64,000 nt of DNA from contig SAPZ01000013.1 in assembly GCA_004020875.1 (NCBI GenBank), forward strand, positions 114,325 through 178,324, given 5' to 3'. This stretch comes from Mesorhizobium sp. Lineage in GTDB: Bacteria; Pseudomonadota; Alphaproteobacteria; Rhizobiales; Rhizobiaceae. Positions 18,924-37,237 of this stretch are shown here, piece after piece. Under the pieces are notes generated by a model, which had not been told where the DNA came from, made no database searches, and was given only the letters and a program-made list of their open reading frames with translations. Position 1 is the first letter of the stretch; every line of letters begins with the position of its first letter. Position numbers and translations under genes: made by a program.

Positions 18924-19940
18924 TCATGCCGGGACCGGAGCGTCTTCCCGCAGCAGCCCGTTCTTCTTCAGGTCCTGCCAGAACTCGCCGGGGATCGGGT
19001 AACTGAACCAGGCCAGGTTCTGCTCGAGTTGCTGGACGGTACGGGTGCCGGCGCAGAAGGACGGGATGGCCGGATGCGCCACCACGAACTGCAAGGCGGC
19101 GGCCGGCAGCGGCACGCCATGCGCGCGGCAGACCTCCTCGATCTTCGCCACTTTCTCCATGATCGGTTTTGGCGCCGGCGAATAGTTATACTTTGCGCCG
19201 GGAACGGCGCCGGTGGCCAGGATGCCGGAATTGAAGCCCCCGCCGACCAGCACCGCCGCGCCGCGCTCGACGCAAAGCGGCAGGAACTCGTTGAGGGCTT
19301 CCTGTTCGAGCAGCGTATAGCGGCCCGCCAGCAGAAAGCAGTCTAAGTCGCGCTGCTTCAGTGCCTCGTGGCAAACCTGCCATTCGTTGACCCCGACGCC
19401 GATCGCCTTCACGAGGCCTTCGGAGCGCAGTTTCTCCAATGCCCGCCAGCAGCCATCCATCGCCTGCCGGAAGACCTCCGGCTGCTCGTCTCCACGGGTG
19501 AACCGATCGATGTCATGGATGAACAGCATGTCGATATGTTCGAGCGCCAGGCGCTGCAGCGAATCCTCGAACGACCGCATGGTGCCGTCGTAGGAGTAGT
19601 CGAAATTCATGGTGTTCGGGGCGGCGTTCGACCACGGCGCGAAGTCGATCTCGGAGCGTTTCGCGGGCTTCAGCACCCGGCCCACCTTGCTGGCGAGGAC
19701 GAACTCGTCGCGCTTCTTCCAGCGCAGCGAATGCCCGGCCCGCAGTTCCGAAAGGCCGTGGCCGTACATCGGCGCCGTGTCGTAGAAACGTATGCCGGCG
19801 TCCCAGGCGGTCTGAACCATGGCATCCGCGGTCTGCTCGTCTATGGGCTGAAGGAAATTGCCGATAGGAGCGGTTCCGAACGCGAAGGCCGTTACGTTGA
19901 GGCCGGATCGGCCGAATACGCGCTTATCAGACGGCTTCAT
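18924..19940 (-). CDS. Aldo/keto reductase, L-fucose / D-threo-aldose dehydrogenase-like
   Basis: 338 residues. The AKR tetrad is visible: Asp and Tyr in FYDTAPMYGHG, Lys in FVLASKVGRV and His in MLFIHDID. The length and the RAGHSLRW and SYDGTMRSFEDSLQRL stretches resemble the dehydrogenases that oxidise aldoses such as L-fucose at C1. GAGAGGATATC precedes the ATG. A TAACC-N4-GGTTA operator is 16 bp upstream and a second site 130 bp upstream, shared with the divergent acyl-CoA dehydrogenase operon. Confidence 0.87.
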   Translation of the reverse strand: MKPSDKRVFGRSGLNVTAFAFGTAPIGNFLQPIDEQTADAMVQTAWDAGIRFYDTAPMYGHGLSELRAGHSLRWKKRDEFVLASKVGRVLKPAKRSEIDFAPWSNAAPNTMNFDYSYDGTMRSFEDSLQRLALEHIDMLFIHDIDRFTRGDEQPEVFRQAMDGCWRALEKLRSEGLVKAIGVGVNEWQVCHEALKQRDLDCFLLAGRYTLLEQEALNEFLPLCVERGAAVLVGGGFNSGILATGAVPGAKYNYSPAPKPIMEKVAKIEEVCRAHGVPLPAAALQFVVAHPAIPSFCAGTRTVQQLEQNLAWFSYPIPGEFWQDLKKNGLLREDAPVPA

Positions 19941-19955
19941 GATATCCTCTCTTAG

Positions 19956-19969
19956 TAACCATCTGGTTA
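19956..19969. promoter_or_regulatory. TAAC-N6-GTTA operator, site 1
   Basis: TAACC-ATCT-GGTTA, a perfect 5-bp inverted repeat around ATCT. It lies 16 bp upstream of the aldo/keto reductase start. It has the same pattern as sites 2-5 in this window. Presumed operator of the TetR-type regulator at 36578-37237. Confidence 0.6.
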
Positions 19970-20068
19970 TTTCTAGTTAAGTTCGGCCGGCGCCGCAAGC
20001 GCTTGTAATGGCAACGCATCCCGAACCGAAGTCCACCGCTTGACGCCGGCGACGATTCCAGCGTAGGA

Positions 20069-20084
20069 GTAACTAGATAGTTAC
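20069..20084. promoter_or_regulatory. TAAC-N6-GTTA operator, site 2
   Basis: GTAACTA-GA-TAGTTAC, a 7-bp perfect inverted repeat. It lies 17 bp upstream of the acyl-CoA dehydrogenase GTG start, where a bound protein would block transcription or translation start. Its 14-bp core is identical to that of site 3. Confidence 0.65.
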
Positions 20085-20100
20085 ATAGGGGAGATCGGCC

Positions 20101-21246
20101 GTGCCGCTGAGCGAAACGCAGCAGCAGGTGCGCGAGATGGCGCGCCAATTTGCCGAGGACGTCATTCGTCCGGTTGCCGAGGCACTCGACCGGGATGAGC
20201 GCTTTCCCGGCGAGATATATGAGCAGATGGGCGAGCTCGGTCTCTTCGGTATCGGCGTTCCGGAGGCCATGGGCGGCCCCGGCTTCGACACGCTTACCTA
20301 TGCGCTGGTGATGGAAGAACTGTCGCGCGGCTATGCGTCCGTCGCCGATCAATGCGGCCTCGTCGAGCTGATCAGCACCTTGCTTGTTCAACATGGCAGC
20401 GAGCTGCAGCGGCAACAGTGGTTGGGTCCGGTCATGCGCGCCGACAAGAAGGCTGCCTACTGTATCACCGAGCCTGAAGCGGGCACCGACGTTTCCGGGA
20501 TACGCACCACCGCGACGCGCGACGGGGATGGATGGCGGCTGAACGGCGGCAAGATCTGGATCCACAACGCGCCGGTCGCCGACGTCGGTTTCGTGCTGGC
20601 GCGCACCGACAAGGATGCAGGCCATCGCGGCATGTCGATCTTCATCGTCGACCTGCACGCCAAGGGAATAGAGCGCGGGCCGAAGGAACATAAGATGGGG
20701 CAGCGGGCCAGCCAGGTCGGCGCGCTCAATTTCAACGATGTCGTCCTGGGTCCCGAAGCGCTGCTGGGCGAACAAGGTCGCGGTTTCCACATGATGATGA
20801 GCGTACTCGACAAGGGGCGTGTCGGCATCGCCTCGCTGGCCGTCGGCATTGCGCAGGCCGGGCTCGAGGCGGCGGTCGACTATGCGCAGCAGCGGCGTCA
20901 GTTCGGCAAGCCGATTGCCGACTTCCAGGGCGTGCAGTGGCTGCTTGCCGACATGGCGAAGGACATCGAGGCGGCCCGTCTGCTCGTGCGCAGCGCCGCC
21001 GAGAAGATCGACGCGGGGGAGAATGCGACCAAGGCCTGCTCGATCGCCAAATGTTTCGCGGGAGACATGGCCGTGGCACGCACCGCCGATGCCGTGCAGG
21101 TCTTCGGCGGCTCCGGCTACATACGCGGCTTCGAGGTCGAGCGGCTCTATCGGGATGCCAAGATCACGCAGATCTATGAAGGCACCAACCAGATCCAGCG
21201 CATGATCATCGCCCGCGAGCTCCTCAAGCATGGAGCCCGGGCGTGA
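20101..21246 (+). CDS. Acyl-CoA dehydrogenase
   Basis: 381 residues starting at GTG with GGGGAG 8 nt upstream. Typical motifs are YCITEPEAGTDVSGI (FAD/substrate contact), MGQRASQVGALNFNDV, and the C-terminal ITQIYEGTNQIQRMIIAREL, where the Glu is the usual catalytic base. It introduces an alpha,beta double bond into an acyl-CoA, passing electrons to ETF. It starts a four-gene operon with SDR, DUF993 and TIM-barrel genes; its stop overlaps the SDR start (GTGA). Acyl-CoA specificity is unknown, but the mix with sugar-type genes is unusual. Confidence 0.92.
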   Translation: MPLSETQQQVREMARQFAEDVIRPVAEALDRDERFPGEIYEQMGELGLFGIGVPEAMGGPGFDTLTYALVMEELSRGYASVADQCGLVELISTLLVQHGSELQRQQWLGPVMRADKKAAYCITEPEAGTDVSGIRTTATRDGDGWRLNGGKIWIHNAPVADVGFVLARTDKDAGHRGMSIFIVDLHAKGIERGPKEHKMGQRASQVGALNFNDVVLGPEALLGEQGRGFHMMMSVLDKGRVGIASLAVGIAQAGLEAAVDYAQQRRQFGKPIADFQGVQWLLADMAKDIEAARLLVRSAAEKIDAGENATKACSIAKCFAGDMAVARTADAVQVFGGSGYIRGFEVERLYRDAKITQIYEGTNQIQRMIIARELLKHGARA

Positions 21247-22025
21247 GTGCCGGATCGCGTCATGCGGCCTTCGTCACGGGATCGAGCCGCGGGATCGGGC
21301 TGGCGGCTGCATTGGAGCTCGCGCGGCGCGGGTTCGGCGTGGCGCTCAACGGTCCGGCCGATGACGAGGAATTGAAATCCGCCGAAGCCGCAGTCGCTGC
21401 GCTCGGCGTTCCGGTCGCGCGTGTCGCGGGCGACGTCGCAGATCTGGGCGGCCACGAAAGCATGCTCGAAGCCGCCGAGGCCGCAATCGGTCCCCTGTCG
21501 ACGCTGATCAACAATGCCGGCGTGTCGGTCATCTCGCGCGGCGACCCGCTCGACGTCACGGAGGAGAGCTATGACCGCTGCCAGGCAATCAACACGAAGG
21601 CCCAGTTCTTCCTGTCGCAGCGTTGGGCCAGGCGGCTGCTTGCCCGCGAGCGCGATGACGGCCGCTTCTACAGCCTGATCAACGTCTCTTCCTCAAATGC
21701 CACGGCGGTGGCGGAGCCGCGCGCCGAATATTGCGTGTCCAAGGCCGGATCCGCGATGGTCAGCCAGGTCTTCGCCGTCCGCCTCGGCCGCGAGAACATC
21801 GCCGTCTACGACATCAGGCCTGGCCTGATCGAAACGGCCATGACCAAGGCGGTCAGCGAGACTTACCAGCGCCGCATCGACGAGGAAGGGCTGACACTGA
21901 TCCGCCGCCTCGGCAAGCCGGAAGATGTCGGTCGCGTCATGGCGACGCTCGCCACGGGCGAGCTGCCCTATACGACCGGCCATGTCATTGCCGTCGATGC
22001 GGGCATGCTGGTGCCGCGGTTCTGA
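21243..22025 (+). CDS. Short-chain dehydrogenase/reductase (3-oxoacyl-ACP reductase-like)
   Basis: 260 residues from GTG at 21243. The cofactor site is FVTGSSRGIGLAAALEL, then INNAGVSV, and the catalytic Ser-Tyr-Lys in INVSSSNATAV and YCVSKAG. C-terminal ...TGHVIAVDAGM is typical of classical SDRs. It could act on a hydroxyacyl-CoA or on a polyol/sugar; the coupled position after an acyl-CoA dehydrogenase does not decide this. Confidence 0.88.
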   Translation: MSAGSRHAAFVTGSSRGIGLAAALELARRGFGVALNGPADDEELKSAEAAVAALGVPVARVAGDVADLGGHESMLEAAEAAIGPLSTLINNAGVSVISRGDPLDVTEESYDRCQAINTKAQFFLSQRWARRLLARERDDGRFYSLINVSSSNATAVAEPRAEYCVSKAGSAMVSQVFAVRLGRENIAVYDIRPGLIETAMTKAVSETYQRRIDEEGLTLIRRLGKPEDVGRVMATLATGELPYTTGHVIAVDAGMLVPRF

Positions 22026-22052
22026 CCGCGGCGCAGCGTCAGGGAGAACGCC

Positions 22053-23201
22053 ATGATCATCCAGCTGCCGGATAGCACGGGCAGACTTTCCGACTACCGT
22101 CTTCAGGGCAAGACAATACCGGCCGCGCGATTGTCCCTCGATGCGCCACGTACCGTGCTGTCGGCGGCCCATGTTGTGGCCGATCCTTTCAGCGTCAGCG
22201 ATCCCGGCGGCCCCGCCGCCATCGACTGGAAGGCCACGATGGCATTCAGGCGCCATCTTCACGGCCTCGGCCTCGGCATCGCCGAGGCGATGGACACCGC
22301 GCAGCGTGGCATGGGCCTCGACTGGCCTTCGGCCTTGGAGCTCATCCGCAGGACCAGGAGCGAGCTGCCCGAAACGCTCGTCTTCAACGGCGCCGGCACC
22401 GATCAGCTCGGACCGGCCGATGCACGTTCGCTCGACGATGTCCGCCGAGCCTATTTCGAGCAGATCGAGGCCATCCAGCAGGTCGGCGGCAGATTGATCG
22501 TCATGGCCAGCCGGGCGTTGGCGGTCGTGGCGCGATCGCCCCTCGATTATGTTTCGATCTATGGCGACGTGCTCGCGCGCTGCGACAGGCCGGTGATCCT
22601 GCACTGGCTGGGCGAGATGTTCGATCCAGCCCTCACGGGTTATTGGGGTGCCGGCCGCTTCGAGGACGCGCTCGAGACGGTCTTGGCGATTATCGGAAAC
22701 AACACCGCCAGGGTCGACGGCATCAAGATCTCGCTTCTCGACAAGGAGAAGGAAATCGCGATGCGCCGCCGTCTGCCCGCCGGCGTGAAGATGTATACCG
22801 GCGACGACTTCAATTATCCGGAGCTGATCGCGGGTGACGAGCAGGGTTTCTCGCATGCCCTTCTTGGTATCTTCGATCCTCTGGCGCCGGCCGCCGCCTA
22901 CGCCATCGATCGGCTCGGCCGAGGCGATACCCAAGGCTTCCACGCCACGCTGGATCCGACCGTTCCGCTCGCGCGCCTGATCTTTCGAGCGCCCACGCAA
23001 TACTACAAGACCGGGGTCGTGTTCCTTGCCTGGCTGAACGGGTTCCAGGATCATTTCATCATGCTGGGAGGCGCTCAGTCGATGCGGCCGCTGCCCTATT
23101 TCGTGGAGGTATTCAAGTTGGCCGATAGCTGCGGCCTCCTGGCGGATCCCGAACTGGCCGCCGCGCGCATGCGCAAGTTGCTTGCCCTTTACGGTCTCTG
23201 A
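22053..23201 (+). CDS. DUF993 family protein (dihydrodipicolinate synthase/aldolase-like)
   Basis: 382 residues, normal for DUF993. Recognisable stretches are MGLDWPSALELIRRTRSE, VILHWLGEMFDPALTGYWG, and the Lys-containing VDGIKISLLDKEKEI, at the place where a Schiff-base Lys stands in DHDPS-like TIM barrels. GGGAG stands 8 nt before the ATG. No function is established for DUF993 as far as I know; the fold and context point to an aldolase or retro-aldol step on a sugar-like intermediate. Such genes tend to occur with the isomerase type found immediately downstream (8-bp gap). Confidence 0.8.
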   Translation: MIIQLPDSTGRLSDYRLQGKTIPAARLSLDAPRTVLSAAHVVADPFSVSDPGGPAAIDWKATMAFRRHLHGLGLGIAEAMDTAQRGMGLDWPSALELIRRTRSELPETLVFNGAGTDQLGPADARSLDDVRRAYFEQIEAIQQVGGRLIVMASRALAVVARSPLDYVSIYGDVLARCDRPVILHWLGEMFDPALTGYWGAGRFEDALETVLAIIGNNTARVDGIKISLLDKEKEIAMRRRLPAGVKMYTGDDFNYPELIAGDEQGFSHALLGIFDPLAPAAAYAIDRLGRGDTQGFHATLDPTVPLARLIFRAPTQYYKTGVVFLAWLNGFQDHFIMLGGAQSMRPLPYFVEVFKLADSCGLLADPELAAARMRKLLALYGL

Positions 23202-23209
23202 TCAGCACT

Positions 23210-24070
23210 ATGCGCGATTTTGCGAAGGATCATTCCGCACTGGCGCTGAACACAGCGACGCTCGGCCATAATCTGGACGGGCACGGCGCAGGCTGGCCCA
23301 TCGAGCGTGTGATCGAGGCCTGTGCCGAACGTGGGCTGGGTGGCATAGTCTTCTGGCGCCGTGAAATCGGCGGCCGCGCCGTCGAGATAGGCGAGCGGGT
23401 TCGCGCGGCCGGCCTGAGTGTCGTCGGCCTGTGCCGCGCGCCTTATCTCACCGGCCCGTTGGCGCTGCCTGGCCGCGCGGCGATCATGGACGATTTCCGT
23501 GGCGCAATCGACATGGCTGCCGGTCTTGGCGCGCCTGTCCTGACCGTCGTCGCCGGTGGGGTGGAGCCGGGGACGAAAGGCATCGGCGAAAGCCTCAAGC
23601 TGGTTGCGGATCGTGTCGCCGAAGCGGCGCCCTACGCGGCGACCAGCAACGTTCGCCTGGCTATCGAGCCGTTGCACCCGGTTTACGGCGGCGATCGGTC
23701 CTGCCTGGTGACGATGCGCGACGCGGTCGATCTTTGCCTTGCCATTGATGCGCCCAATGTTGGCGTCGCGGTAGACGTCTACCACGTCTGGTGGGATTGC
23801 AGGCTGGCCGGCGAACTGCTGCGGGCCGGGCCGAAACGCATTTTCGGCTATCACCTTTGCGATTGGCTGGCGCAGACAGGCGACGTGCTGCTCGACCGCG
23901 GCATGATGGGAGACGGCGTGGCCGACCTGAAGGCGATCCGCGCGGCGGTGGAAGCGGCCGCCTATGACGGATCGTGCGAGGTGGAGGTGTTCTCGGCGCG
24001 GAACTGGTGGAAGCGTGACCCCCGGGACGTGCTGGATATTTGCGTGGAGCGCTTCCGCTCCGTTTGTTGA
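23210..24070 (+). CDS. Sugar phosphate isomerase/epimerase-like TIM-barrel protein
   Basis: 286 residues of the AP_endonuc_2/xylose-isomerase-like superfamily. The metal-site pattern includes Glu in LAIEPLHPVYGGDRS, Asp/His in VAVDVYHVWWD, His in GYHLCDW and a late Glu in CEVEVFSA. It probably isomerises or epimerises a sugar or keto-acid. It is the last gene of the acyl-CoA dehydrogenase operon and converges with the enoyl-CoA hydratase gene across 125 bp of noncoding DNA. Confidence 0.82.
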   Translation: MRDFAKDHSALALNTATLGHNLDGHGAGWPIERVIEACAERGLGGIVFWRREIGGRAVEIGERVRAAGLSVVGLCRAPYLTGPLALPGRAAIMDDFRGAIDMAAGLGAPVLTVVAGGVEPGTKGIGESLKLVADRVAEAAPYAATSNVRLAIEPLHPVYGGDRSCLVTMRDAVDLCLAIDAPNVGVAVDVYHVWWDCRLAGELLRAGPKRIFGYHLCDWLAQTGDVLLDRGMMGDGVADLKAIRAAVEAAAYDGSCEVEVFSARNWWKRDPRDVLDICVERFRSVC

Positions 24071-24195: not shown

Positions 24196-24966
24196 TCAAT
24201 CCCCCGATCGGCGGCCCTTTTCCCGGAAGGCAGCCAGGCCCGCCCGAAGGTCATCGCTGCCAGCGGCGATCCGTCCGGCAAACGCATCCAGGACACGCTC
24301 CCGTTCCTCGCCTTCGGCAGCGTTGAGGAGCATCTTGGCGAGCTCCGTGGCGGTGGCGGACCGGCTTGCAACGATAGCTGCAAGTTCCTCGGCCGCCGCG
24401 AGGCCGCCACCCTTGCCGACGACCTTGTCGACGAGCGACAATCTCAAGGCCTCTTCGGCGGAATAGACCTCGCCGAAGAGCGACATGCGGCGGATCAACT
24501 GGGTGCCGAAACGGCGAGCCGTGCGCTGGGTGCCCGACCAGCCCGGTATGATCCCAAGGCCGGTTTCAGGCAGACCGATGCGGGCGTGGCTCTCGGCGAT
24601 CCGATAGTCGGCGCAGGCCGCAAGCTCCAGGCCTCCGCCAAGGCAGTGGCCGTTGAGGACGGCAATGACCGGTTGCGAGAGCCTGGCGAGAGCGTCGAAG
24701 CCGGCATGGCCGTCGCGGATCCAGTGGCGCGCGAACTCCGCCGGGTCGAGCGCGCTCCAGGCGGCCACGTCCCCGCCCGCGCAGAATGACTTCTCGCCCT
24801 CGCCGGTCAGGATCAGCACCTTGGCCGCGGAACGCTCCACCGCCCTGCACAGCGGAACGAGCGCATCGACCATCGCGGCATCGAGCGCGTTGAGCTTCTC
24901 AGGCCGGCGGATCGTCATTCGCGCCACCGGCCCGTCGAAGCTGAGGTCGAGGCGGGGATCGCTCAC
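24196..24966 (-). CDS. Enoyl-CoA hydratase/isomerase family protein
   Basis: 256 residues from the GTG at 24966, which overlaps the CoA-transferase stop (GTGA); a longer frame upstream belongs to the transferase region. Oxyanion-hole motifs are KSFCAGGDVAAW and NGHCLGGGLELAACADYRIA, and the second active-site region is LPETGLGIIPGWSGTQRTAR. It likely hydrates the enoyl-CoA made by the acyl-CoA dehydrogenase of the same regulon. Confidence 0.9.
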   Translation of the reverse strand: MSDPRLDLSFDGPVARMTIRRPEKLNALDAAMVDALVPLCRAVERSAAKVLILTGEGEKSFCAGGDVAAWSALDPAEFARHWIRDGHAGFDALARLSQPVIAVLNGHCLGGGLELAACADYRIAESHARIGLPETGLGIIPGWSGTQRTARRFGTQLIRRMSLFGEVYSAEEALRLSLVDKVVGKGGGLAAAEELAAIVASRSATATELAKMLLNAAEGEERERVLDAFAGRIAAGSDDLRAGLAAFREKGRRSGD

Positions 24967-26534
24967 AGCCGCAACCCTATCGGTTGGTCGAGGAACAGTG
25001 CCTCGTCCATCTGCTTCAGTCCCGGCGAGACCGCCAGAGGAGACGCCGCCTGCCGCAGGACATCGCGTTCGAGGTCGAGCCCGGGAGCTATTTCGGTGAC
25101 GACCAGGCCGTCGGCCGCCAGGCGGATGACGCATCTTTCCGTCACATAGGTGACGTCCTGGCCCTGGCTGACGGCGCGCGCGCCTGAGAAGCTGACCTGG
25201 TCCACCTTCGGAACGATCTTGGCGACCTTGCCTTCCTTGTCGATGACCAGCTTGCCGTTCTCCAGCCGCATCTTCGCGCCGGCGTTGAAGTTGCCGGAGA
25301 ACACAATCTTGCGCGCTCGCGAGGTTATGTCCACGAAGCCGCCGGCGCCGGCGGTGCGATGCGGCGTCGAGGAAAGACGCGAGACGTTGACGGATCCGTC
25401 GGAGCCGATTTCGAGGAATGACAGCAAGGAGCAGTCGAAGCCCCCGGCCTGGAAGTAGGTGAAAAGGTGCGGGGAGGCGACGAAGGCCTCTGCGTTGGAG
25501 GCGCAGCCGAACTTGAAATCGAGCAATGGCACGCCGCCCACCGGACCCTGCTCGATCACCCAGGTGACGGCGCCGTACAGGCCCTCTTCGATCAGGATGC
25601 GCGGCACGTTGGCCGAGATGCCGAAGCCGATATTGACCGCCCAGCCCGCTCGAAGCTCCTGCGCGACGCGGCGCGCGATGACCTTGGAGACATTGTATTC
25701 CGGGGTGCGGAACGTGTGCAGCGGCCGGAACAGTTCTCCCGATATCGCCGGGTCATAAGCCGTCGCCGTGGTCTGCAGCTGATCCGGCGCCTCGACGATG
25801 AAATCCACCAGGATACCAGGCACATGCACATCATGCGGCCGCAGCGTGCCCTGAGCCGCGACGCGCTTGACCTGGGCAATGACGATGCCGCCGCAGTTGC
25901 GCGCCGCAAGCGCCATTTCCATCGCGCCGAGCGTCGCGCCTTCCTGCTCGAAGGTGAGGTTTCCCTTCTCGTCCGCCGTGGTCGCGCGGATGATCGCCAC
26001 ATCCGGCCTAAGGGGAGGGAAGTGGAGCCAGGTCTCGCCGTTGAATTCGACGCGCCGCACGATCGGCGCCTTCCGGGCCGAAGCGTTCATGGCTCCGCCC
26101 TCGAGTATCGGATCGACAAATGTGTCCATGCCGACCTTGGTCAACACGCCCGGACGCTGCGCCGCGCCCTCGCGCAGCATGTCGAACACGATTCCGGAGG
26201 GGAAGTTCCAAGCCGCCACATCTTCGGCCACGATACGCTGCCAGATCAGCGGCGGCTCGGCATTGGTGGGTCCTGAGGGATATGAGCCGCCGATGATGCG
26301 GCTGATCAGGCCCGGCAGGGCGATGTGGTCGACCCCCTTGGTGCCGAACATGTCGCCGGCGGCAATCGGATGGATGGTGGTGATGTTGCGCGGCGCCCCT
26401 TCGGCCGCGAAGCGTTTGCCAAGGGCTTCAAGCACGGCGTCCGGGCAAAGCAGGCCGGACGACGAATTGACCGCTACCACCGCTGCGTCGCGAATCTGAG
26501 CGACGGCCTCCGCCGCGGACCTGACCTTGCTCAC
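24963..26534 (-). CDS. Acetate/propionate-type CoA-transferase (family I)
   Basis: 523 residues from the GTG at 26534, preceded by GGAGAGG; the open frame upstream to 26954 crosses the promoter and is not coding. Both halves of a fused alpha/beta CoA-transferase are present. The catalytic Glu is probably that in TWVIEQGPVGGVPLLD, near residue 325. The length matches propionate CoA-transferase (about 520). It would activate or exchange a carboxylic acid onto CoA for the beta-oxidation-like enzymes. Operator site 3 lies 29 bp upstream. Confidence 0.9.
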   Translation of the reverse strand: MSKVRSAAEAVAQIRDAAVVAVNSSSGLLCPDAVLEALGKRFAAEGAPRNITTIHPIAAGDMFGTKGVDHIALPGLISRIIGGSYPSGPTNAEPPLIWQRIVAEDVAAWNFPSGIVFDMLREGAAQRPGVLTKVGMDTFVDPILEGGAMNASARKAPIVRRVEFNGETWLHFPPLRPDVAIIRATTADEKGNLTFEQEGATLGAMEMALAARNCGGIVIAQVKRVAAQGTLRPHDVHVPGILVDFIVEAPDQLQTTATAYDPAISGELFRPLHTFRTPEYNVSKVIARRVAQELRAGWAVNIGFGISANVPRILIEEGLYGAVTWVIEQGPVGGVPLLDFKFGCASNAEAFVASPHLFTYFQAGGFDCSLLSFLEIGSDGSVNVSRLSSTPHRTAGAGGFVDITSRARKIVFSGNFNAGAKMRLENGKLVIDKEGKVAKIVPKVDQVSFSGARAVSQGQDVTYVTERCVIRLAADGLVVTEIAPGLDLERDVLRQAASPLAVSPGLKQMDEALFLDQPIGLRL

Positions 26535-26562: not shown

Positions 26563-26578
26563 GTAACTAGATAGTTAT
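26563..26578. promoter_or_regulatory. TAAC-N6-GTTA operator, site 3
   Basis: GTAACTAGATAGTTAT, with the same 14-bp core (TAACTAGATAGTTA) as site 2 some 6.5 kb away. It lies between the divergent CoA-transferase (start 29 bp away) and aldo/keto reductase (start 71 bp away) genes, so one bound regulator could control both. Confidence 0.65.
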
Positions 26579-29121: not shown

Positions 29122-30617
29122 CACTTGATCCAGTGCGCACGCTTGCCGACCTCGATGTGGACGGACTTGACCTGTGTGTACTCTTCCACTCCGTACATTC
29201 CGGCCTCTCTTCCCCAGCCGGATTGCTTGAACCCGCCGAGCGGCATCTCCGGCCCGCCGGCCATGATCGTATTCACCCAAAACCGGCCGGCGCGCACGCG
29301 CCGCGTCACCACCAGCGCCTTGTCGATGTTCTTGGTCCATACGCTGGCAGCCAGGCCATAGACGGTATCGTTCGCAAGACTGATTGCCTCCTCGATCGTG
29401 TCGAAGTGGAAGGAAGAGAGGACGGGCCCGAAGATTTCGTCGCGGGCAATCGACATTCCGGGCGTGACCCCGGAAAACAATGTCGGCGCGATATACTGGC
29501 CGCCACCAAGGTCCACGGCCTGTCCGCCGGCGACAAGCATCGCGCCTTCGGCTTTGCCCTTGTCGATATAGCTCAAGATGATCGAATTCTGCGCGTCTGT
29601 GGTGATGGCGCCGACCTGCGTCTTCGTTTGCAGCGGATCGCCGACGATTATCTTAGCCATCTTGGCGGCGAGGATTTCCTCGAACTCGCGGGCAACCGAG
29701 CGCTCCACGATGACGCGGCTCGACGAAACGCAGCACTGACCCGTGTTGAAGCTTATGCCGAAAGCCGCGCCGTCTGCCGCATCCTCGAGATCGCTGTCCG
29801 CGAACACGATGATCGGATTCTTGCCGCCGAGTTCCAGGCCGAGTTTCTTGAAGTTGGAATCGGCGGCCGCATGGACACATGAGCGTCCGACGGATGTCGA
29901 TCCGGTGAAAGACAGCATGTCGACGTCGGGATGCTCCGTCAGGGCCTGGCCGATCGTTCGCCCCGAGCCGGTGACGACGTTATAGACACCGTCCGGCGCG
30001 CCGGCTTCGGAAAGGATCTCGCCAAGCAGCAGCGTGGTCGCGGATGTGACCTCCGAAGGCTTGACGACAACAGTGCATCCGCTGGCCAGGATGAAGGGAA
30101 TGCGCTCGCACAGGATCAGGAAGGGGAAATTCCAGGGCGTGATGAGCCCGACCACGCCGACCGGCTCGCGCAGCACCATGCCGAAAAGGCCATCGCCGAG
30201 ACTATTGAAGCTGTCGCCGTGCAACAGCCTTCCAGCGCCCGCGCCGACCTCGAAGCATGCAATGCAGTGATCGATCTCGCCGCGCGCCTGGGAGATCGGC
30301 TTGCCGTTTTCGAGGACTTCCCAATAGGCGATTTCGTCGCGGCGGCGGCGCAGGATATCGGCGGTCCTCAGAAGCACCGCCGCGCGGTCGGCCCCCGGCA
30401 GTCCGGCCCACCGGCGATCCTCGAATGCACGGCGCGCCGCGGCGACGGCCGCGTTGAGGTCGTCGACCGTACATCTGGGCGTAAGCGTCACCGGCACGCC
30501 GTGGGCCGGCGACCGGCGTTCGAACATGGCGCCGCCCTTGCGCCAGGATCCGTCCGACCAGAAACCGAATTCTCGCGGCGCATCCGGCAGGGTCGCGCGG
30601 TCAGTGAAATCAAGCAT
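29121..30617 (-). CDS. Aldehyde dehydrogenase (NAD(P)-dependent, betaine-aldehyde type)
   Basis: 498 residues. Catalytic Glu is in LELGGKNPIIVF, catalytic Cys in NTGQCCVSSSRVIVE, and the cofactor site is FTGSTSVGR. The C-terminal GREAGMYGVEEYTQVKSVH is typical of BADH/aminobutyraldehyde-type enzymes. It sits in the long minus-strand operon between the alcohol dehydrogenase and the GMC enzyme and likely makes the acid used by the CoA-transferase. Confidence 0.92.
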   Translation of the reverse strand: MLDFTDRATLPDAPREFGFWSDGSWRKGGAMFERRSPAHGVPVTLTPRCTVDDLNAAVAAARRAFEDRRWAGLPGADRAAVLLRTADILRRRRDEIAYWEVLENGKPISQARGEIDHCIACFEVGAGAGRLLHGDSFNSLGDGLFGMVLREPVGVVGLITPWNFPFLILCERIPFILASGCTVVVKPSEVTSATTLLLGEILSEAGAPDGVYNVVTGSGRTIGQALTEHPDVDMLSFTGSTSVGRSCVHAAADSNFKKLGLELGGKNPIIVFADSDLEDAADGAAFGISFNTGQCCVSSSRVIVERSVAREFEEILAAKMAKIIVGDPLQTKTQVGAITTDAQNSIILSYIDKGKAEGAMLVAGGQAVDLGGGQYIAPTLFSGVTPGMSIARDEIFGPVLSSFHFDTIEEAISLANDTVYGLAASVWTKNIDKALVVTRRVRAGRFWVNTIMAGGPEMPLGGFKQSGWGREAGMYGVEEYTQVKSVHIEVGKRAHWIK

Positions 30618-30688
30618 GGAATGCCTCCGTTCCGACGGGTACGCCGGCCGTTCGCAATCGCCGTCTCGGCGAGACGCGCCGGCCTGCC

Positions 30689-31732
30689 TTAGTTGAATAG
30701 GATCTGCGTCTTCAGATCCTGTGGCCGTTCGGCCAAAGTCTCGAAGACGCGCTGGATCTGATCGAGAGGAAAGGCCGCGCGCGTGAATGCCTCGGTCCGA
30801 AAGCGGCCGTGCGATAAAAGTGTCAGCGCATCGTGCATGTCTTCTCCCATGCCGGCGACGGAGCCCTTGAGACTGTTTTCCTCAAGGATTGTGCGTAGGA
30901 TATCGACCGGCACCGTGTCCTTGGGCTCGGTAAGGCCGAAGAAAGCGACATGGCCGCCCTTGCGGATGAGCTCGAATGCGAGCGTGTAAAGCCGCGGCGA
31001 ACCAACGCTCTCAATCACGAGATCCGCGCCGCGCCCGCCGGTCCTTTTCAGGACCTCCGCCTTGAGCTGGGCAGGATCGGCGACGGCTGCATCCGCACCG
31101 GCTTCAAGAGCAAGGCGGCAACGGTCTTCCGACAGATCGGCGACGATGATTGGCGCGGCGCCGCACAGGCGCATCATCTGGACGTGAAGGTTACCGATCG
31201 GCCCAGCGCCGAGAATGACGACGGATTGGCCGAAGGTCGTGCGTGCCTTGCGCGCGGCGCGCACCACGCAGGAGACCGGCTCGGTAAGGGCAAGCACCTC
31301 AGCCGGCACATTGTCCGGAGCCGGTATGACAAGCCTGGCCGGCACGCACACATATTCCGCGAAGGCGCCGTCGCGTCCGATTCCCACCTGCGTCATAGAC
31401 GGGCAGTTCAGAATCTCGTTGCGGCGGCACCAATAGCACTCACCACAACCGATGTTGACGTCCGCGACGCAAGTCGTGCCGGGCTTGATGTGCTTCACAT
31501 GCGCACCCGTCTCGGCGACGGTCCCGGCAAACTCGTGGCCAGGCACCAGCGGCAGCCGGTCGGCGGCATAGTGCCCGTTGAAGATATGGATGTCGGTGCC
31601 GCATATGCCGGTCCGCGAGACGCGGATCAAGGCGTCGTCGGGGCCCACTTCCGGAACGGCGACCTCGCGCAGATCGAAACGGTGCGGAGCGGTCAGGACG
31701 GCGGCGCGCATTGTTGCCATGGCTTGTGTCAC
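30689..31732 (-). CDS. Zinc-dependent medium-chain alcohol/polyol dehydrogenase
   Basis: 347 residues. Catalytic-zinc motifs are GICGTDIHIFNGHY and GHEFAGTVAETG, and the structural-zinc Cys cluster is CGECYWCRRNEILNC. The Rossmann site is VVILGAGPIGNLHVQM. It resembles sorbitol/threonine dehydrogenase-type enzymes that oxidise a secondary hydroxyl. Its start overlaps the upstream permease stop (ATGA), tying it to transport of the substrate. Confidence 0.9.
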   Translation of the reverse strand: MTQAMATMRAAVLTAPHRFDLREVAVPEVGPDDALIRVSRTGICGTDIHIFNGHYAADRLPLVPGHEFAGTVAETGAHVKHIKPGTTCVADVNIGCGECYWCRRNEILNCPSMTQVGIGRDGAFAEYVCVPARLVIPAPDNVPAEVLALTEPVSCVVRAARKARTTFGQSVVILGAGPIGNLHVQMMRLCGAAPIIVADLSEDRCRLALEAGADAAVADPAQLKAEVLKRTGGRGADLVIESVGSPRLYTLAFELIRKGGHVAFFGLTEPKDTVPVDILRTILEENSLKGSVAGMGEDMHDALTLLSHGRFRTEAFTRAAFPLDQIQRVFETLAERPQDLKTQILFN

Positions 31733-32670
31733 TTCACCGTGCGAAGCTTGGAGCGGTCGATGGTCAAGGCGATGGCTGCGATCAGCACCAGGCCGAAAAC
31801 CATCTGTTGCTGCGTCGCCGCGATGCCGAAATAGAGCATCGAGGCGCGGATGACCGCCACGATCAGCGTGCCGATCGCGGTGTTGAGCACACCGCCGACG
31901 CCGCCCGTCAGCGGCGTTCCGCCGACAAGCACCGCGACGATGGCCGGCAGCAGGAAGCCGTTGGCGATCGTCGGCGCGCCGCCGGACAGCTTGACGGAGA
32001 ACAGCAGCCCGGCCACGGCGGCCAGCCCTCCGGATATCGCGAAGGCGAGGATTTTATAGCGGGCGACATTGAGGCCGGATGCGGCCGCGGCCAGTTCGCC
32101 GGCGCCCACGGCCTTCAGAGCGCGGCCGAGGACCGTGCGCCGTTCTATGAGCAGGCAGATCGCCAGCAGGCCGATGGCGATGAAGAGCTCGTGCGGCACG
32201 ATGCCGGTTCGACCGATCATCCAGCCGAACGTCTCGTTGCGCTGGGTGGCGTCCATGTTCAGGGCGCGGTTGCCGGAAAGCCATTGCGCCACCGAAAAGC
32301 AGATGCCGCCGACGGCCAGCGTTGAGATGAAGGATGGCACGTACATGCGGGTGGTCAGGTAGCCGGAGAGCGTTCCCAGCGTGAATCCGGCAAGAATGCA
32401 CAGCGCCGCCACCCAGATCCCCAGTGGCGCCAGACAGACCGAGGCGACGACGGTGATCATGTTCGCCATCGACTGTGCCGACAGGTCGATGCCGCCGATG
32501 TAGATCGCGAAGGTCAGTCCCAGCGCCATGATGAACAGCGGCACGATATCGCCTGCAAGGCTCAGCAGATTGGCGGGCTTGAGGAAGCTGGGATCGGCGA
32601 TGCCGACGATCGTGACCAGGACCAGGAGGGTGATCCAGGGGAAGTGCGGCTTGAGGCGTTGGATGTCCAT
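31729..32670 (-). CDS. Ribose-type ABC transporter permease (second of two)
   Basis: 313 residues with about 8-10 hydrophobic segments of the RbsC/BPD_transp_2 type, including the family stretch IGGIDLSAQSMANMITVVA and the late GGVGGVLNTAIGTLIVAVI. It pairs with the permease at 34193-35158 for a heterodimeric channel. It lies between the ATPase and the alcohol dehydrogenase gene. Confidence 0.9.
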   Translation of the reverse strand: MDIQRLKPHFPWITLLVLVTIVGIADPSFLKPANLLSLAGDIVPLFIMALGLTFAIYIGGIDLSAQSMANMITVVASVCLAPLGIWVAALCILAGFTLGTLSGYLTTRMYVPSFISTLAVGGICFSVAQWLSGNRALNMDATQRNETFGWMIGRTGIVPHELFIAIGLLAICLLIERRTVLGRALKAVGAGELAAAASGLNVARYKILAFAISGGLAAVAGLLFSVKLSGGAPTIANGFLLPAIVAVLVGGTPLTGGVGGVLNTAIGTLIVAVIRASMLYFGIAATQQQMVFGLVLIAAIALTIDRSKLRTVK

Positions 32671-32679
32671 GGAGGCCCC

Positions 32680-34185
32680 TCAGATCATGTAGTGCAGAAG
32701 GTCGTAGAGCGTCGGCTTGGAACCGGGCACGCAGTCGAAGCGCTTCTGGATCTGACCGTCCTTGATCACGACGATGGTGTGGGAGAGGCCGATCGCCTCT
32801 TCAAGCGTGTCGGCGACCAGGGCAACGCCGACCCCGTCGTCGCACATCTCCCTGATCATGTCGTACACATCCTCCTTGGCGCCGATGTCCAGGCCTCGGG
32901 TCGGATGATCGAGCAGCATGATGTCGGAGCCGCCCGACCGCCATTTGGCAAGCACGACCTTCTGCTGGTTGCCGCCGGAAAGGTTGCCGCAGTCGGCATA
33001 TTCGGAGCTTGCCTTGATGGCGAGCTTGCCGATCCATTTCCTGGCAAGGGCACGCTCGTCGGCCACGTCGAGCCAGCCCATCCGCGCGTAGTGCGGCATT
33101 TGCGAGAGCGTCATGTTCTCGTAGACATTCATGCCGGCCACGATGCCCTCGATCTTGCGCTCGCGCGGCACATATCCGACGCCGCGCTCCACCGCTCCCC
33201 GGGCAGTAAGCCTGGAGACGGTCTCGCCCTTGATCTTCAGCGTGCCCTTGGTGGGCGTCCGCATGCCGTAGATTGTTCGAAGGATCGCTTCACGGCCGGA
33301 GCCTTCAGTGCCGACCAGGCACAAGACCTCGCCGGCATGAAGCGTCAGCGAGATGTCGCGGACCCGTCCGGGCAGGCTGACGTCCGACAGCTCGACCAGA
33401 GGCCTCGCCGGATCGTAGGGCCTCTGCTTCTGTTCCCGGTAATACTCCTTGTCGACATGGCGTCCGACCATCTTGTGCTGGATCGCCTCCGGTGTCGCCG
33501 CGCCGCGCGAGACGACGTCGACCACCTGGCCATCCTTCATCACGTAGATGCGGTCGGAGAGCTCCATGACCTCGTCCATGCGATGGGACACGAAGATGAA
33601 GGAAGCGCGCGTCGTCAGCTCCCGCACGAGCTTGAACAAAAGCTTTACTTCTTCCTCCGCCAGCACCGAGGTCGGCTCGTCGAGCAGGACGACCAGATGA
33701 CCCTGCACCCGCTCCTCCAGGGTCAGCACCTTGGCCAGTTCCACAAGCTGGCGCTGCGCGAAGGAAAGGCTTGAGGTGATCGTGCGAGGATCGATATCGA
33801 GCTTGACCTTTGCAAGCTGCTTCCGGGCGGCTTTGGCCATCGCCTTCCAGTTGACCACGCCGAGGCGTGAGAACTGGTCTTCACAGCCCAGGAATATGTT
33901 TTCCATCACGGACAGGTTGGTGATCAGCGATTGCTCCTGAAACACCATCCCGATGCCACGCTCCATGGCGTCGCGCGGGCCGTTGAACCGGACAGGCTTG
34001 CCATCGATGAGGATCTCGCCGCCATCGGGCTGGTAGGCGCCGTAGATCACCTTCATGAGCGTGGATTTGCCCGCGCCATTCTCGCCCACCAGCCCGACGA
34101 TCTCGCCGCGGCTGATGGAGAAGTCGACCGATTTCAGTGCGCGGACGCCCGGAAACTTCTTTTCAACGGCCTTCAATTCGTACAT
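32680..34185 (-). CDS. Ribose/sugar ABC transporter ATP-binding protein (two NBDs, RbsA/MglA type)
   Basis: 501 residues from the ATG at 34185; the longer frame to 34293 lies within the permease gene. The N-terminal domain has Walker A GENGAGKST (about residues 37-45), LSFAQRQLVELAKVL and VVLLDEPTSVL. The second domain has GTEGSGREAI and NLSGGNQQKVVLAKW with MLLDHPTRGLDIG. The degenerate second Walker A is normal for this family. Confidence 0.92.
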   Translation of the reverse strand: MYELKAVEKKFPGVRALKSVDFSISRGEIVGLVGENGAGKSTLMKVIYGAYQPDGGEILIDGKPVRFNGPRDAMERGIGMVFQEQSLITNLSVMENIFLGCEDQFSRLGVVNWKAMAKAARKQLAKVKLDIDPRTITSSLSFAQRQLVELAKVLTLEERVQGHLVVLLDEPTSVLAEEEVKLLFKLVRELTTRASFIFVSHRMDEVMELSDRIYVMKDGQVVDVVSRGAATPEAIQHKMVGRHVDKEYYREQKQRPYDPARPLVELSDVSLPGRVRDISLTLHAGEVLCLVGTEGSGREAILRTIYGMRTPTKGTLKIKGETVSRLTARGAVERGVGYVPRERKIEGIVAGMNVYENMTLSQMPHYARMGWLDVADERALARKWIGKLAIKASSEYADCGNLSGGNQQKVVLAKWRSGGSDIMLLDHPTRGLDIGAKEDVYDMIREMCDDGVGVALVADTLEEAIGLSHTIVVIKDGQIQKRFDCVPGSKPTLYDLLHYMI

Positions 34186-34192
34186 TGCAGCC

Positions 34193-35158
34193 TCACTTGA
34201 CGAACGCGACCGCGCGCCGGTCCGTCGACAGGATGACCGCGATGATGACCAGTAGCCCGAGAACGGCGGCCTGCAGGAAATCGGGCAGGCCAATGACCAC
34301 CATGCCGTTGTTGATGACGGCGACGATCAAGACGCCGACGAGCGTGTTCCATACGCCGCCGATGCCACCCCAGAGCGCCACGCCGCCGACCACCACTGAC
34401 GTGATGGACATGAACATGAAGTTGGATCCGGTGACGGATTCGGCCTGGCCGAGCTTCGCCACCTGCAGGATCGCCGCGATCGCGTAAAAGAAGCCAGCAA
34501 GCGAGAAGCCGGCCATCCTCACATGTTGCACCCGCACGCCCGAGGCATGGGCGAGTTCCTCGCCGCCGCCGACCGCATAAAAGTAACGCCCAAGTCGGGT
34601 CTGGGCCTGGATGAACCAGGCGAGGACGAGGCAGAGGCCCGCGACATAGACCATCAGCGGAAAGCCGAGGATGCGCCAGGTCAGCAGGGCGCGGAACGTC
34701 GGATCGTTGAATTTGACGATGTCGCCGCCGGTCAGCAGGATCGCGGCGCCCGTGCCGACGAATCCGAGCGCGAGGCTCGCCATGAAGGATGGTATCTTCA
34801 GCTTGACGTGGATGAAACCGTTCACCAGGCCGATCGCGGCCCCGACGACGAGAATGACCGGGATTGCGATCCAGCCGCCCGACGCGAGCGTTCCGCCGAG
34901 CGCCAGCATCAGGAAGCAAAAAAGGACGGCCGTCAGGGAGACGACGCCCTCCATGGAGAGGTCGATGGAACCCATCACGATGATGAAGGTCACGCCGACC
35001 GCCACCATGAGCGCGGGCGCCGCCGCGATTGCGATGCGCGCGAAGTTGCGTTGCGACAGGAACGAGGGGTTTATGGCCGTGAACAGCACTATGAGCGCGA
35101 GAAGCACCATGAAGGGCGCCCAGCGGATCGCGTTCTCCCGCGTGAGGATGCGTGGCAA
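34193..35158 (-). CDS. Ribose-type ABC transporter permease (first of two)
   Basis: 321 residues from TTG at 35158, chosen because GGGAGG stands just upstream; another in-frame TTG at 35176 lacks a binding site. The family stretch IIVMGSIDLSMEGVVSLTAV and GGIGGVWNTLVGVLIVAVI are seen, with about 8-10 membrane segments. It follows the binding-protein gene after a 71-bp gap that contains a strong hairpin. Confidence 0.88.
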   Translation of the reverse strand: MPRILTRENAIRWAPFMVLLALIVLFTAINPSFLSQRNFARIAIAAAPALMVAVGVTFIIVMGSIDLSMEGVVSLTAVLFCFLMLALGGTLASGGWIAIPVILVVGAAIGLVNGFIHVKLKIPSFMASLALGFVGTGAAILLTGGDIVKFNDPTFRALLTWRILGFPLMVYVAGLCLVLAWFIQAQTRLGRYFYAVGGGEELAHASGVRVQHVRMAGFSLAGFFYAIAAILQVAKLGQAESVTGSNFMFMSITSVVVGGVALWGGIGGVWNTLVGVLIVAVINNGMVVIGLPDFLQAAVLGLLVIIAVILSTDRRAVAFVK

Positions 35159-35191
35159 CTCCGGCCTCCCGTCCAAGCGTGCCGTGTAGGG

Positions 35192-35215: not shown

Positions 35216-35229
35216 GATCGAGCTTCGTA

Positions 35230-36342
35230 TCACTTGTACTTGATCTGGCCGTTGCTCGGTCCCCAGAAATCCTTCCAATTGTAGGAAGGAACGGCGTCCA
35301 GATATTTGGCCTTGAAATCCGCGGCGTCCTTTTTGGTGACGAGGACCGTCGGGCCGTAGAATTCGCGGTGCTCCTTCGGTTCCTCCGAAGGCTTGAAGGC
35401 GCCGGTCGCGGCGTAATAGGCGAGCGCCGCCGTGATGCCGCCGCCCCAGTGCGGATTGGTGAAGACGGTCGCAAGGAGCTTGCCCTCCATCACCAGCTTC
35501 ACGGCCTCCGGATTTCCGTCATAGGCGACGATCGGCATATTCTCGATACCCTCGGCGCGCAGCGCCTCGATCACGCCATAGGCGATGTTGTCGTTGGCGC
35601 AGTGCACGCCGGTGATCTTGTCGCCGAAGCGCGTCAGGAAAGACGCCATCAGCTCCGTGCCCTTGGTCGTGTCCCAGTCGGCGGGCTGAGCATCGAGAAG
35701 CTCGATATCGGGAAAATCCTTCAAGGCGTTCTTCAAGCCGTTCAGACGCTCGATTGCCGGGTTGTTGGCGGCGATGCCACCCAGATGCACGACGCCACCC
35801 TTGCCGCCCATGGCATCGAACAGGATCCGCGCCGTCTGCTCGGCCGGCTTCTCGTCCGACCAGGTCATGTGCGAGACGTAATTGTCGCCGACGTCCCACG
35901 GGTGCAGGTCGTCGGTCTTGTTCCAGATCGTGGAAATGTAGGCGCCGGCATCATGCACAGCCTCAACCACCGGACGGGCGTTCGGGCTGTCATTGGCATC
36001 GCAGGCGATAGCGCACTTGCCGCCGGTCTTGGCCAGGAACGCCTTGATGTCGGCCAGCGACTTTTCGGAAGACCCTTCGTTGATCAGCGAGACGAGGGAA
36101 TCCTTGGGCTTGCCGAGGGATTCCACGAATGCCTCGCCGCCCGAAACGATCGAGTTCCAGTAAGCCGAGGCGCGGTCGCGGTACGACCAGGCGATTGCCG
36201 GGTCACTGATCGCCGCCCCGGCAGCGCCGCCGCCGAAGGCGAACGGCACGGCCATCGCTCCCATGCCGGCGGCCGTGGCGAGCAGGAAATTGCGCCGGTT
36301 AACGGTCTCGCGTTCGATGAAATCCTTGATGAAAGTCGACAT
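35230..36342 (-). CDS. Sugar ABC transporter substrate-binding protein (periplasmic, ribose type)
   Basis: 370 residues from the ATG at 36342 with GGGAGGT upstream. The N-terminus has a twin-arginine-like signal (NRRNFLLATAAGMGAMAV). The Peripla_BP_4 pattern includes GVHCANDNIAYGVIEALRAEG and PIVAYDGNPEAVKLVMEGKL. It is the first gene of the long minus-strand operon (binding protein, permease, ATPase, permease, alcohol DH, aldehyde DH, GMC). Two operator-like sites lie 62 and 95 bp upstream. The ligand is unknown, likely sugar- or polyol-like. Confidence 0.9.
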   Translation of the reverse strand: MSTFIKDFIERETVNRRNFLLATAAGMGAMAVPFAFGGGAAGAAISDPAIAWSYRDRASAYWNSIVSGGEAFVESLGKPKDSLVSLINEGSSEKSLADIKAFLAKTGGKCAIACDANDSPNARPVVEAVHDAGAYISTIWNKTDDLHPWDVGDNYVSHMTWSDEKPAEQTARILFDAMGGKGGVVHLGGIAANNPAIERLNGLKNALKDFPDIELLDAQPADWDTTKGTELMASFLTRFGDKITGVHCANDNIAYGVIEALRAEGIENMPIVAYDGNPEAVKLVMEGKLLATVFTNPHWGGGITAALAYYAATGAFKPSEEPKEHREFYGPTVLVTKKDAADFKAKYLDAVPSYNWKDFWGPSNGQIKYK

Positions 36343-36403
36343 GCTACCTCCCAGTTGGCACGGCCCGCAGGGGCGCGGGCAACTATTGAGCAATCGGGAA
36401 TCC

Positions 36404-36417
36404 TAACCATCCAGTTC
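36404..36417. promoter_or_regulatory. TAAC-N6-GTTA operator, site 4 (diverged)
   Basis: TAACCATCCAGTTC, matching site 1 in the left half and with two changes plus an imperfect end in the right half. It lies 62 bp upstream of the sugar-binding-protein start and 33 bp centre to centre from site 5, about three helical turns. Confidence 0.45.
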
Positions 36418-36436
36418 GCTCTTCCGATCGCTTAAT

Positions 36437-36450
36437 GCACCATCTAGTTA
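36437..36450. promoter_or_regulatory. TAAC-N6-GTTA operator, site 5 (diverged)
   Basis: GCACCATCTAGTTA, with one good half (CTAGTTAC including the next base). It lies in the divergent region between the binding-protein operon and the TetR-type regulator gene, allowing control of both. Confidence 0.45.
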
Positions 36451-36577
36451 CTTCCTTAGAACGGGTGAGTCAAGCGGCGGGGCGATCGATGGCCTGTTGA
36501 CTTCTCCTCCAATTGAACTGACTTTCAGACATCAGCATCGTCGCTGCGCGGGATCGGTAACCAAAGGAGCGGCCGAA

Positions 36578-37237
36578 GTGGACGCCACGTCCGGGAAGTC
36601 AAAAAATGGTGTCAGGAAGGGGCGACTGCGGGATGCCGAAGCAACCAAGCTTCGCATCTTGGTGGCGGCAAAAAGCGATTTCGCCAAGAATGGCCTCGGC
36701 GGCGCACGCGTTGATGTCATCGCAGCAAAGGCCAAAGCCAACAAGCGCATGATTTACCATTACTTCGGCAGTAAGGATAATCTATTCCAGGCCGTAATTG
36801 AGAATGCTTACCACGACATTCGGACGGCTGAACAGAAGCTTAATCTTGATGATTTGGATCCGAAGGACGCTCTTGAGCGCCTTGTTCGGTTCACATGGCA
36901 ATATTACTTGAAGAATCCTGAGTTTATAACTTTGGTAAACAGCGAAAATCTCCATCGTGCCAAACATGTGAAGAGGTCTGAGCTGATCAAGGCGGAGACC
37001 CGAAAATTTGTTGCCATGGTCTCTGGTATACTCGAAAGGGGCGTGAGCAGCGGAGATTTTCGTGCCGGGATCGACCCCGTGCAGTTGAACATCACGATCG
37101 CGGCGATCGGATACTATTATCTGACAAACCGATTCACCGGTTCGATTATTTTCGAGCGTGACCTGATGGAGAAGGATGCTCTGAATGAGCGCCTGGAATT
37201 CAATATCGACACCATTATGAGACTTGTGAGCGCGTGA
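36578..37237 (+). CDS. TetR-family transcriptional regulator
   Basis: 219 residues from GTG at 36578, preferred because AAAGGAG stands 9 nt upstream; an ATG at 36497 would add 27 residues. The N-terminal TetR helix-turn-helix is about residues 20-68 (ATKLRILVAAKSDFAKNGL, GARVDVIAAKAKANKRMIYHYFGSKDNLFQAV). The C-terminus is a TetR ligand-binding domain. It is divergent from the sugar transporter operon, with two operator-like sites between. It is the only regulator gene within the 18.9-37.2 kb block, so it is the obvious candidate for the TAAC-N6-GTTA sites. Confidence 0.88.
   Translation: MDATSGKSKNGVRKGRLRDAEATKLRILVAAKSDFAKNGLGGARVDVIAAKAKANKRMIYHYFGSKDNLFQAVIENAYHDIRTAEQKLNLDDLDPKDALERLVRFTWQYYLKNPEFITLVNSENLHRAKHVKRSELIKAETRKFVAMVSGILERGVSSGDFRAGIDPVQLNITIAAIGYYYLTNRFTGSIIFERDLMEKDALNERLEFNIDTIMRLVSA

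Follow-up and report, generated by a model that had tools for sequence, protein, structure and literature searches.

The window analysed here, a stretch of 64,000 nucleotides from Mesorhizobium sp. (contig SAPZ01000013.1, positions 114,325 to 178,324), carries an 18.3-kb block of catabolic genes (18924 to 37237) with a gene for a TetR-family regulator (36578-37237) at its end. It is highly probable, in our view, that this TetR protein is a dedicated local repressor, which would act at three divergent intergenic regions serving six transcription units and would be released by the pathway substrate or an intermediate. The repressor-operator interpretation is strongly supported by comparison of related sequences rather than by experiment, and the conserved sequence at each shared promoter is very probably the binding site of the adjacent repressor. 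Judged by gene direction and spacing, the putative units are AKR1 (an aldo/keto reductase gene); acyl-CoA dehydrogenase (ACAD)-SDR-DUF993-TIM barrel; CoA transferase-enoyl-CoA hydratase (ECH); AKR2 (a second aldo/keto reductase gene); periplasmic sugar-binding protein (SBP)-permease-ATPase-permease-alcohol dehydrogenase (ADH)-aldehyde dehydrogenase (ALDH)-GMC oxidoreductase; and tetR. These operon boundaries are inferred, and so are binding of the protein to DNA, repression and its relief, and control of AKR2 through the shared site.

Three forms of the operator were distinguished: a refined motif (TAACYAKMTRGTTA), a loose form (TAAC-N6-GTTA) and an asymmetric form (GTAAC-N6-GTGC, in its longer version GTAACYAnnTRGTGCnTTA). 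The TetR protein would bind palindromes of the type GTAACYAnnTRGTTAC and the longer asymmetric form. Three exact copies of TAAC-N6-GTTA were found in the window, compared with 0.02 expected from dinucleotide shuffles, and none of 100 shuffles reached three. Operator 1 (19956-19969, TAACCATCTGGTTA) lies at the AKR1 start, operator 2 (20070-20083, TAACTAGATAGTTA) in the promoter of the ACAD operon and operator 3 (26564-26577, again TAACTAGATAGTTA) between the CoA transferase gene and AKR2. All three are exact palindromes, to which no strand is assigned. Operator 4 (36433-36451, minus strand) is the asymmetric GTAACTAGATGGTGCATTA in the SBP/TetR region; on the plus strand it reads GCACCATCTAGTTA at 36437. 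The first-pass annotation of this DNA had reported five palindromes of one form, at 19956, 20069, 26563, 36404 and 36437, with an identical 14-bp core in the second and third. The first coordinate was correct, the second and third were one base off, and the shared 14-mer was confirmed. As had been stated, operators 1 and 2 lie within 20 bp of start codons (15 bp from that of AKR1 and 17 bp from that of ACAD, respectively). Operator 3 is situated approximately 71 bp from the AKR2 start. The claim that all sites fall in the three divergent intergenic regions holds for the four supported here. The remaining site (36404-36417, no strand assigned, TAACCATCCAGTTC) and the one at 36437 each differ from the refined motif at two positions, so that neither is exact. 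The 14-mer at 36404 is also present, without change, on contig C15 of the same genome. It was not conserved in loci L107, L108, L282 and L284 and was rejected as an operator; in one comparison nine relatives were aligned at this position, properly only in the case of L282 and L284.

We scanned the complete genome (6.66 Mb) for the motif. Of the 10 copies of TAAC-N6-GTTA, three fall in this block; if the other seven are taken as background, the Poisson probability of at least three sites in 18.3 kb is approximately 1e-6. Without mismatch, TAACYAKMTRGTTA was found only at operators 1-3. One mismatch added a single place (on contig C50), and with two mismatches there were 20 places, including 36404 and 36437. 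The asymmetric GTAACYANNTRGTGCNTTA, at up to one mismatch, matched the genome only at operator 4. The palindromic operator is thus confined to promoters of the cluster adjacent to the regulator gene, the C50 site (L041) being the one possible exception. That site, located approximately 120 bp upstream of a ClpP-like open reading frame (ORF), is a probable chance match. The many genome-wide copies that, according to the first-pass annotation, would have refuted the reading were not seen, and the occurrence of only three refined copies in the genome argues against a global factor as the protein that binds them. Genome-wide over-representation of the motif was not seen, the control read backwards being commoner (38 vs 10 places for the loose and 66 vs 24 for the refined form). 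The unusual feature is the concentration of the motif in this block.

To follow the sites across relatives, we used 80 related loci, the best 80 of 186 centred on the GMC gene. These derive from Mesorhizobium, Shinella, Ensifer, Paracoccus, other Rhodobacteraceae, Gluconobacter, Gluconacetobacter and Komagataeibacter, among others. The GMC protein of the window is 93% identical to a copy in a Mesorhizobium metagenome-assembled genome, and the plasmid collection contributed copies from Sinorhizobium meliloti pSymA and Paracoccus plasmids. The 297 family genomes searched include that of the window; besides it, 21 gave a match to the TetR protein at 63-77% identity, and the four genomes of the same genus among the 297 gave none at E <= 1e-20. 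Intergenic regions of identical sequence were merged (65 to 55 for AKR1/ACAD, 81 to 70 for AKR2/CoA transferase, 76 to 65 for SBP/TetR) and regions longer than 1500 bp were skipped. All perfect dyads of the type 4-Nk-4, with k from 0 to 14, were then counted de novo in the de-duplicated divergent regions of the relatives, excluding the window. TAAC-N6-GTTA was the top-ranked dyad, being present in all 54 AKR1/ACAD regions and in 67 of the 69 AKR2/CoA transferase regions. In 30 shuffles the mean was 0.13 and 0.17, respectively, and no shuffled dyad exceeded 4. The two exceptions, L142 and L149, carry GTAAC-N6-GTGC in front of the CoA transferase gene. A lack of conservation in related clusters, the second refuting outcome named in the first-pass annotation, was therefore not observed either. 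The AKR1/ACAD region often contains more than one site: at least two exact copies were found in 33 of 55 regions (window included), the first usually 14-21 nt from the match to AKR1, and the site on the ACAD side begins 30-59 nt before the start of the ACAD match. The 33 spacings between such pairs (76-156 bp) displayed no clear preference for helical phasing, as judged by eye. The SBP/TetR region is different. The N6 palindrome is found there in only 11 of 64 relatives (window excluded), and GTAAC-N6-GTGC, mostly followed by one base and TTA, in 64 of 65 regions (window included). This is the sequence of operator 4 in the window; the reported site at 36437 is therefore a real, asymmetric variant, and of the five palindromes of the first-pass annotation only that at 36404 lacks conservation.

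The sites are also restricted to the space between genes. In 94 mapped loci (after loci with fewer than six mapped genes or with the same first 500 mapped bases had been dropped, although one locus in two orientations was not always collapsed), no exact site occurred in 1,349,821 bp of mapped genes, compared with 240 in the 224,734 bp outside them. Palindromes that arise by chance, or structural repeats without regulatory role, could be suspected since the motif is not over-represented genome-wide and since 36404, one of the five reported, resembles a chance match. Yet the near-universal presence of the sites in the three equivalent regions and their absence from 1.35 Mb of mapped genes make such an origin very unlikely, and we assign it next to no probability.

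Moreover, the sites follow promoters through rearrangement. L107 shares with the window an AKR1-ACAD-SDR-DUF993-TIM module in the opposite orientation to that of Shinella, and its sites remain between AKR1 and ACAD. The upstream region of ACAD adjoins the 3' end of the TetR gene in L132, and a site is present there; in G063 ACAD is divergent from the TetR gene with a site in between. In L151, where the SBP gene is not next to the TetR gene, it is SBP that keeps the asymmetric site. The gap between ADH and ALDH contains one or the other form of the site in 12 of 70 loci. The asymmetric form is not limited to SBP: L147 carries it upstream of ALDH and AKR2, and L172 between the GMC and CoA transferase genes.

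We asked whether the motif accompanies the regulator. Within the genus, an orthologue of the TetR protein (E <= 1e-60) was detected in 16 of 146 genomes, including that of the window, and GTAACYANNTRGTTA in 18 of 146; a reversed control pattern was present in 11 of 146. The motif was found in all 16 genomes that bear an orthologue and in only 2 of the 130 that do not (Fisher 1.8e-19; the genomes are related). The operator is therefore co-conserved with the regulator, with the exceptions given below. An improbable alternative is that the protein recognising the sites is encoded elsewhere, be it a different TetR protein or a global factor, and that the adjacent TetR protein has a separate target. 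Some relatives do carry sites with no TetR gene in the fetched stretch, two motif-positive genomes of the genus have no orthologue, and roughly 126 bp separate the tetR start from the nearest supported site in the window. However, when the genomes of eight loci without a mapped TetR gene were searched, five encoded an intact orthologue at 64-76% identity (L147, L151, L169, L170, L174) and one a split match (L158); L148 and L131 gave nothing above 46%. L148 has the motif but begins near a contig end, and L131 lacks the motif. The genomes of L157 and L180 were searched as well, both loci having a TetR gene. Together with the genus-wide pattern and with distant homologues of the same recognition helix, which lie next to this motif although their neighbouring genes differ in part, these matches speak against that alternative.

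Further support comes from the segment NKRMIYHYF, which corresponds to the recognition helix established for the TetR family. In an alignment of 39 proteins, N55, K56, R57, M58, Y60, H61 and Y62 of the window protein were invariant. We compared 94 distinct homologues at 38-56% identity (identical proteins collapsed, drawn mostly in rank order rather than at random, only the N6 form counted). An exact motif was found within 700 bp of 21 of the 29 homologues with the helix NKRM[IL]YHYF, compared with 2 of the 65 others (Fisher 1.8e-12), and both of the latter carry NKRMIYHYW. When presence of the motif was mapped onto a tree of 95 proteins, 5 changes were needed, against a mean of 21.6 after shuffling; none of 500 shuffles was as low. 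No alternative operator stood out for homologues of the SKRM type (41 examined). The reading of the block as a TetR regulon, already put forward in the first-pass annotation, thus draws sequence-level support from conservation, from co-occurrence within the genus and from the association with the recognition helix.

A separate group of TetR homologues with the helix TNKRMIYHY[FW] (L187, L188, L191, L197, L219-L222, L225, L226, L228) was observed to have two TAAC-N6-GTTA sites each within 700 bp; in L187, L188, L191 and L197 the two sites flank the TetR gene, approximately 0.8-0.9 kb apart.

Several observations weigh against assigning the sites to this repressor. Two genomes of the genus (G368 and G388) have the motif without an orthologue, and in three (G385, G424, G444) the listed motif places are on contigs other than that of the TetR match. 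Either form of the site lies within 700 bp of the gene in only 75 of 96 orthologue rows (at least 62% identity), rows that were not de-duplicated and some of which are at contig ends. Neither exact form (TAAC-N6-GTTA or GTAAC-N6-GTGC-N-TTA), one of which is present in 74 of the 80 loci, occurs in the remaining six (L131, L157, L165, L166, L169, L170). In L165 GTAAC-N6-GTGC is present but lacks the trailing TTA, and L157, L166 and L170 have a site with one mismatch; L169 has none. Since the genomes of L157, L169 and L170 encode an orthologue although the exact operator is absent, the operator may have drifted, or the link may have been lost, in these Acetobacteraceae. For eight of the 29 NKRM[IL]YHYF homologues an exact motif is absent within 700 bp, nor was a TAAC-N6-GTTA with one mismatch found within 300 bp of them. 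In the tree, the TetR protein of the window is placed beside the motif-free L213 and L224, outside the main motif clade, in a topology whose long branches render placements unsure. Finally, as helix type covaries with clade and the genomes are related, the Fisher values overstate independence.

The position of the sites suggests how repression might work. Near SBP, the aligned set shows a conserved TTGAC whose first base stands 23 nt ahead of the G of GTAAC. The window has TTGACT at 36473-36468 (minus strand) and, after a gap of 17 nt, TAACTA, which forms the left half of operator 4. If TAACTA serves as the -10 hexamer as well as the operator half, a repressor at operator 4 would cover the -10 hexamer. 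By our reading, an 18-nt spacer behind TTGACG at 20040 would bring operator 2 to the -10 element or just past it. A stricter scan with the sigma-70 consensus gave no promoter in the three divergent regions, which counts against these assignments. Given the location of the sites at the SBP and ACAD promoters, occlusion is the likeliest mode of repression: the repressor, bound on or just downstream of the -10 element, would exclude RNA polymerase until an imported substrate or a pathway intermediate released it. An activating or mixed role of the bound TetR protein at some promoters is conceivable for operator 3, which would serve two divergent genes and lies so far from the AKR2 start that occlusion is less obvious. 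Members of the TetR family are mostly repressors, however, and the ACAD, AKR1 and SBP sites, near a start codon or overlapping a predicted -10, are suited to repression; an activating role is thus very improbable in our estimation. The 36437 site belongs by position to the SBP promoter, and autoregulation of tetR, in addition to repression of the other units, is uncertain.

In nearly all relatives that have the region, the right half of the importer operator reads GTGCnTTA where GTTAC would be expected, always in one orientation and with its left half as the putative -10. As a tentative proposal, which we hold with some reserve, this imperfect operator may leak and let inducer into the cell while the catabolic operons are held tight, and NKRM[IL]YHY[FW] may represent a code from which TAAC-N6-GTTA operators of TetR proteins could be predicted in different catabolic clusters. 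Against the part that would make the asymmetric form specific to the importer stand its copies before CoA transferase (L142, L149), before ALDH and AKR2 (L147) and between GMC and CoA transferase (L172).

The regulator itself is a protein of 219 aa with a GTG start (36578-37237, plus strand), for which Pfam, run on the longer ORF 36497-37237, reports an N-terminal helix-turn-helix domain (TetR_N, PF00440, 43.2 bits vs a cut-off of 24) and a C-terminal TetR_C_29 domain (PF17938, 141.8 bits vs 26.2). Its identification as RutR, the best NCBIfam match, was ruled out (TIGR03613, 54.7 bits vs a cut-off of 368). Among the ORFs of the block scanned with Pfam no second regulator was recognised, in agreement with the earlier claim that TetR is the only one. 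With TetR_N and TetR_C_29 domains, a palindrome of a size that fits a dimer and a gene divergent from a controlled operon, the system resembles local TetR/AcrR repressors of catabolic clusters, and we regard the regulon as a well-supported new example of this common kind of switch.

The genes of the block were assigned mainly by Pfam and NCBIfam. AKR1 (18924-19940, minus strand, PF00248) is followed by the four co-directed genes of the ACAD run on the plus strand: ACAD (20101-21246), the SDR gene for a 3-ketoacyl-ACP reductase-like protein (21243-22025, exceeding the NCBIfam cut-off for NF009386), DUF993 (22053-23201, PF06187 at 2.7e-176, solved relative 4dnh) and a xylose-isomerase-like TIM barrel protein (23210-24070) related to SMc04130 (3ju2). 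ECH (24196-24954, start approximate, as the ORF opens at 25134; Pfam) and a YdiF-like CoA transferase (24963-26534) are encoded on the minus strand, and the DkgB-like AKR2 (26649-27470) on the plus strand. The remaining genes before tetR are all on the minus strand: GMC oxidoreductase (27517-29112, start approximate), ALDH (29121-30617), zinc-type ADH (30689-31732), an ABC sugar permease (31729-32670), a sugar ABC ATPase (32680-34293, coordinates of the ORF, the true start being probably inside), a second ABC sugar permease (34193-35176, NCBIfam) and SBP (35230-36342, Pfam on a longer ORF and NCBIfam), the first gene of this transporter/oxidoreductase run, whose best solved relative by sequence is 2rjo.

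Judged by its enzymes, the pathway would take up a sugar or polyol, oxidise it to an acid, transfer this to CoA and then proceed by dehydrogenation and hydration. Neither a thiolase nor a CoA synthetase was recognised by Pfam among the block ORFs scanned, and no glycerate kinase was recognised in the block. Some relatives add a glycerate kinase (including a MOFRL-domain protein), electron transfer flavoprotein (ETF) and a MaoC-like protein, which points to glycerate as a possible product. In S. meliloti pSymA (L106, L279) and on a Paracoccus kondratievae plasmid (L105) the same genes are found, with TetR at 75% identity and, in L105 and L106, exact TAAC-N6-GTTA sites. In these clusters glycerate kinase is annotated inside and ETF beside; neither was found in the block of the window. 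The AKR1-to-TIM module (18924-24070) of the window is inverted relative to the Shinella, S. meliloti and Paracoccus copies. In one pSymA copy, a ParDE-like toxin-antitoxin pair is annotated between AKR2 and GMC (L279:9981-10587).

The deoxyribonate pathway of K. michiganensis was considered as the identity of the cluster. That pathway (PMC6365646) shares with the window CoA-bound intermediates and a CoA transferase, and glycerate kinase with relatives of the window cluster. The deoxyribonate cluster, as described there, has CoA synthetase, thiolase and MFS transporters; in contrast, the window has ACAD, DUF993, a TIM barrel protein, GMC/ALDH/ADH and a sugar-type ABC importer, and the pathway was retained only as an analogue. 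In the open-licence literature, DUF993 was not found by name and a published description of the regulon was not found; the six operator 14-mers searched occurred in a single, unrelated paper, on genome engineering of Zymomonas. Locus numbers of the SMa series led to nothing relevant, and those of the SMc series to one paper.

The analysis proposes a regulator, an operator and a set of genes, all open to testing, for a catabolic cluster that is widespread in Alphaproteobacteria. The boundary of the regulon suggests which enzymes share one pathway, and a screen for inducers could be built on the regulator-operator pair, offering a route to the substrate. For a group of TetR proteins, the association with the recognition helix could allow operators to be predicted from protein sequence.

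Beyond the block, the segment 37238-39873 contains a gene for an FkbM methyltransferase and three small ORFs to which Pfam gave no match, in a stretch of lower G+C content (0.557 for 36001-40000). A second sugar-type cluster follows at 40670-48149, encoding two periplasmic binding proteins, a ROK protein, a Gfo/Idh oxidoreductase and an ABC ATPase. At 52329-59602, genes for an HlyD-like protein and an ABC transporter with a C39 peptidase domain, with a DUF5801 protein of 1002 aa adjacent, resemble a type I secretion locus.

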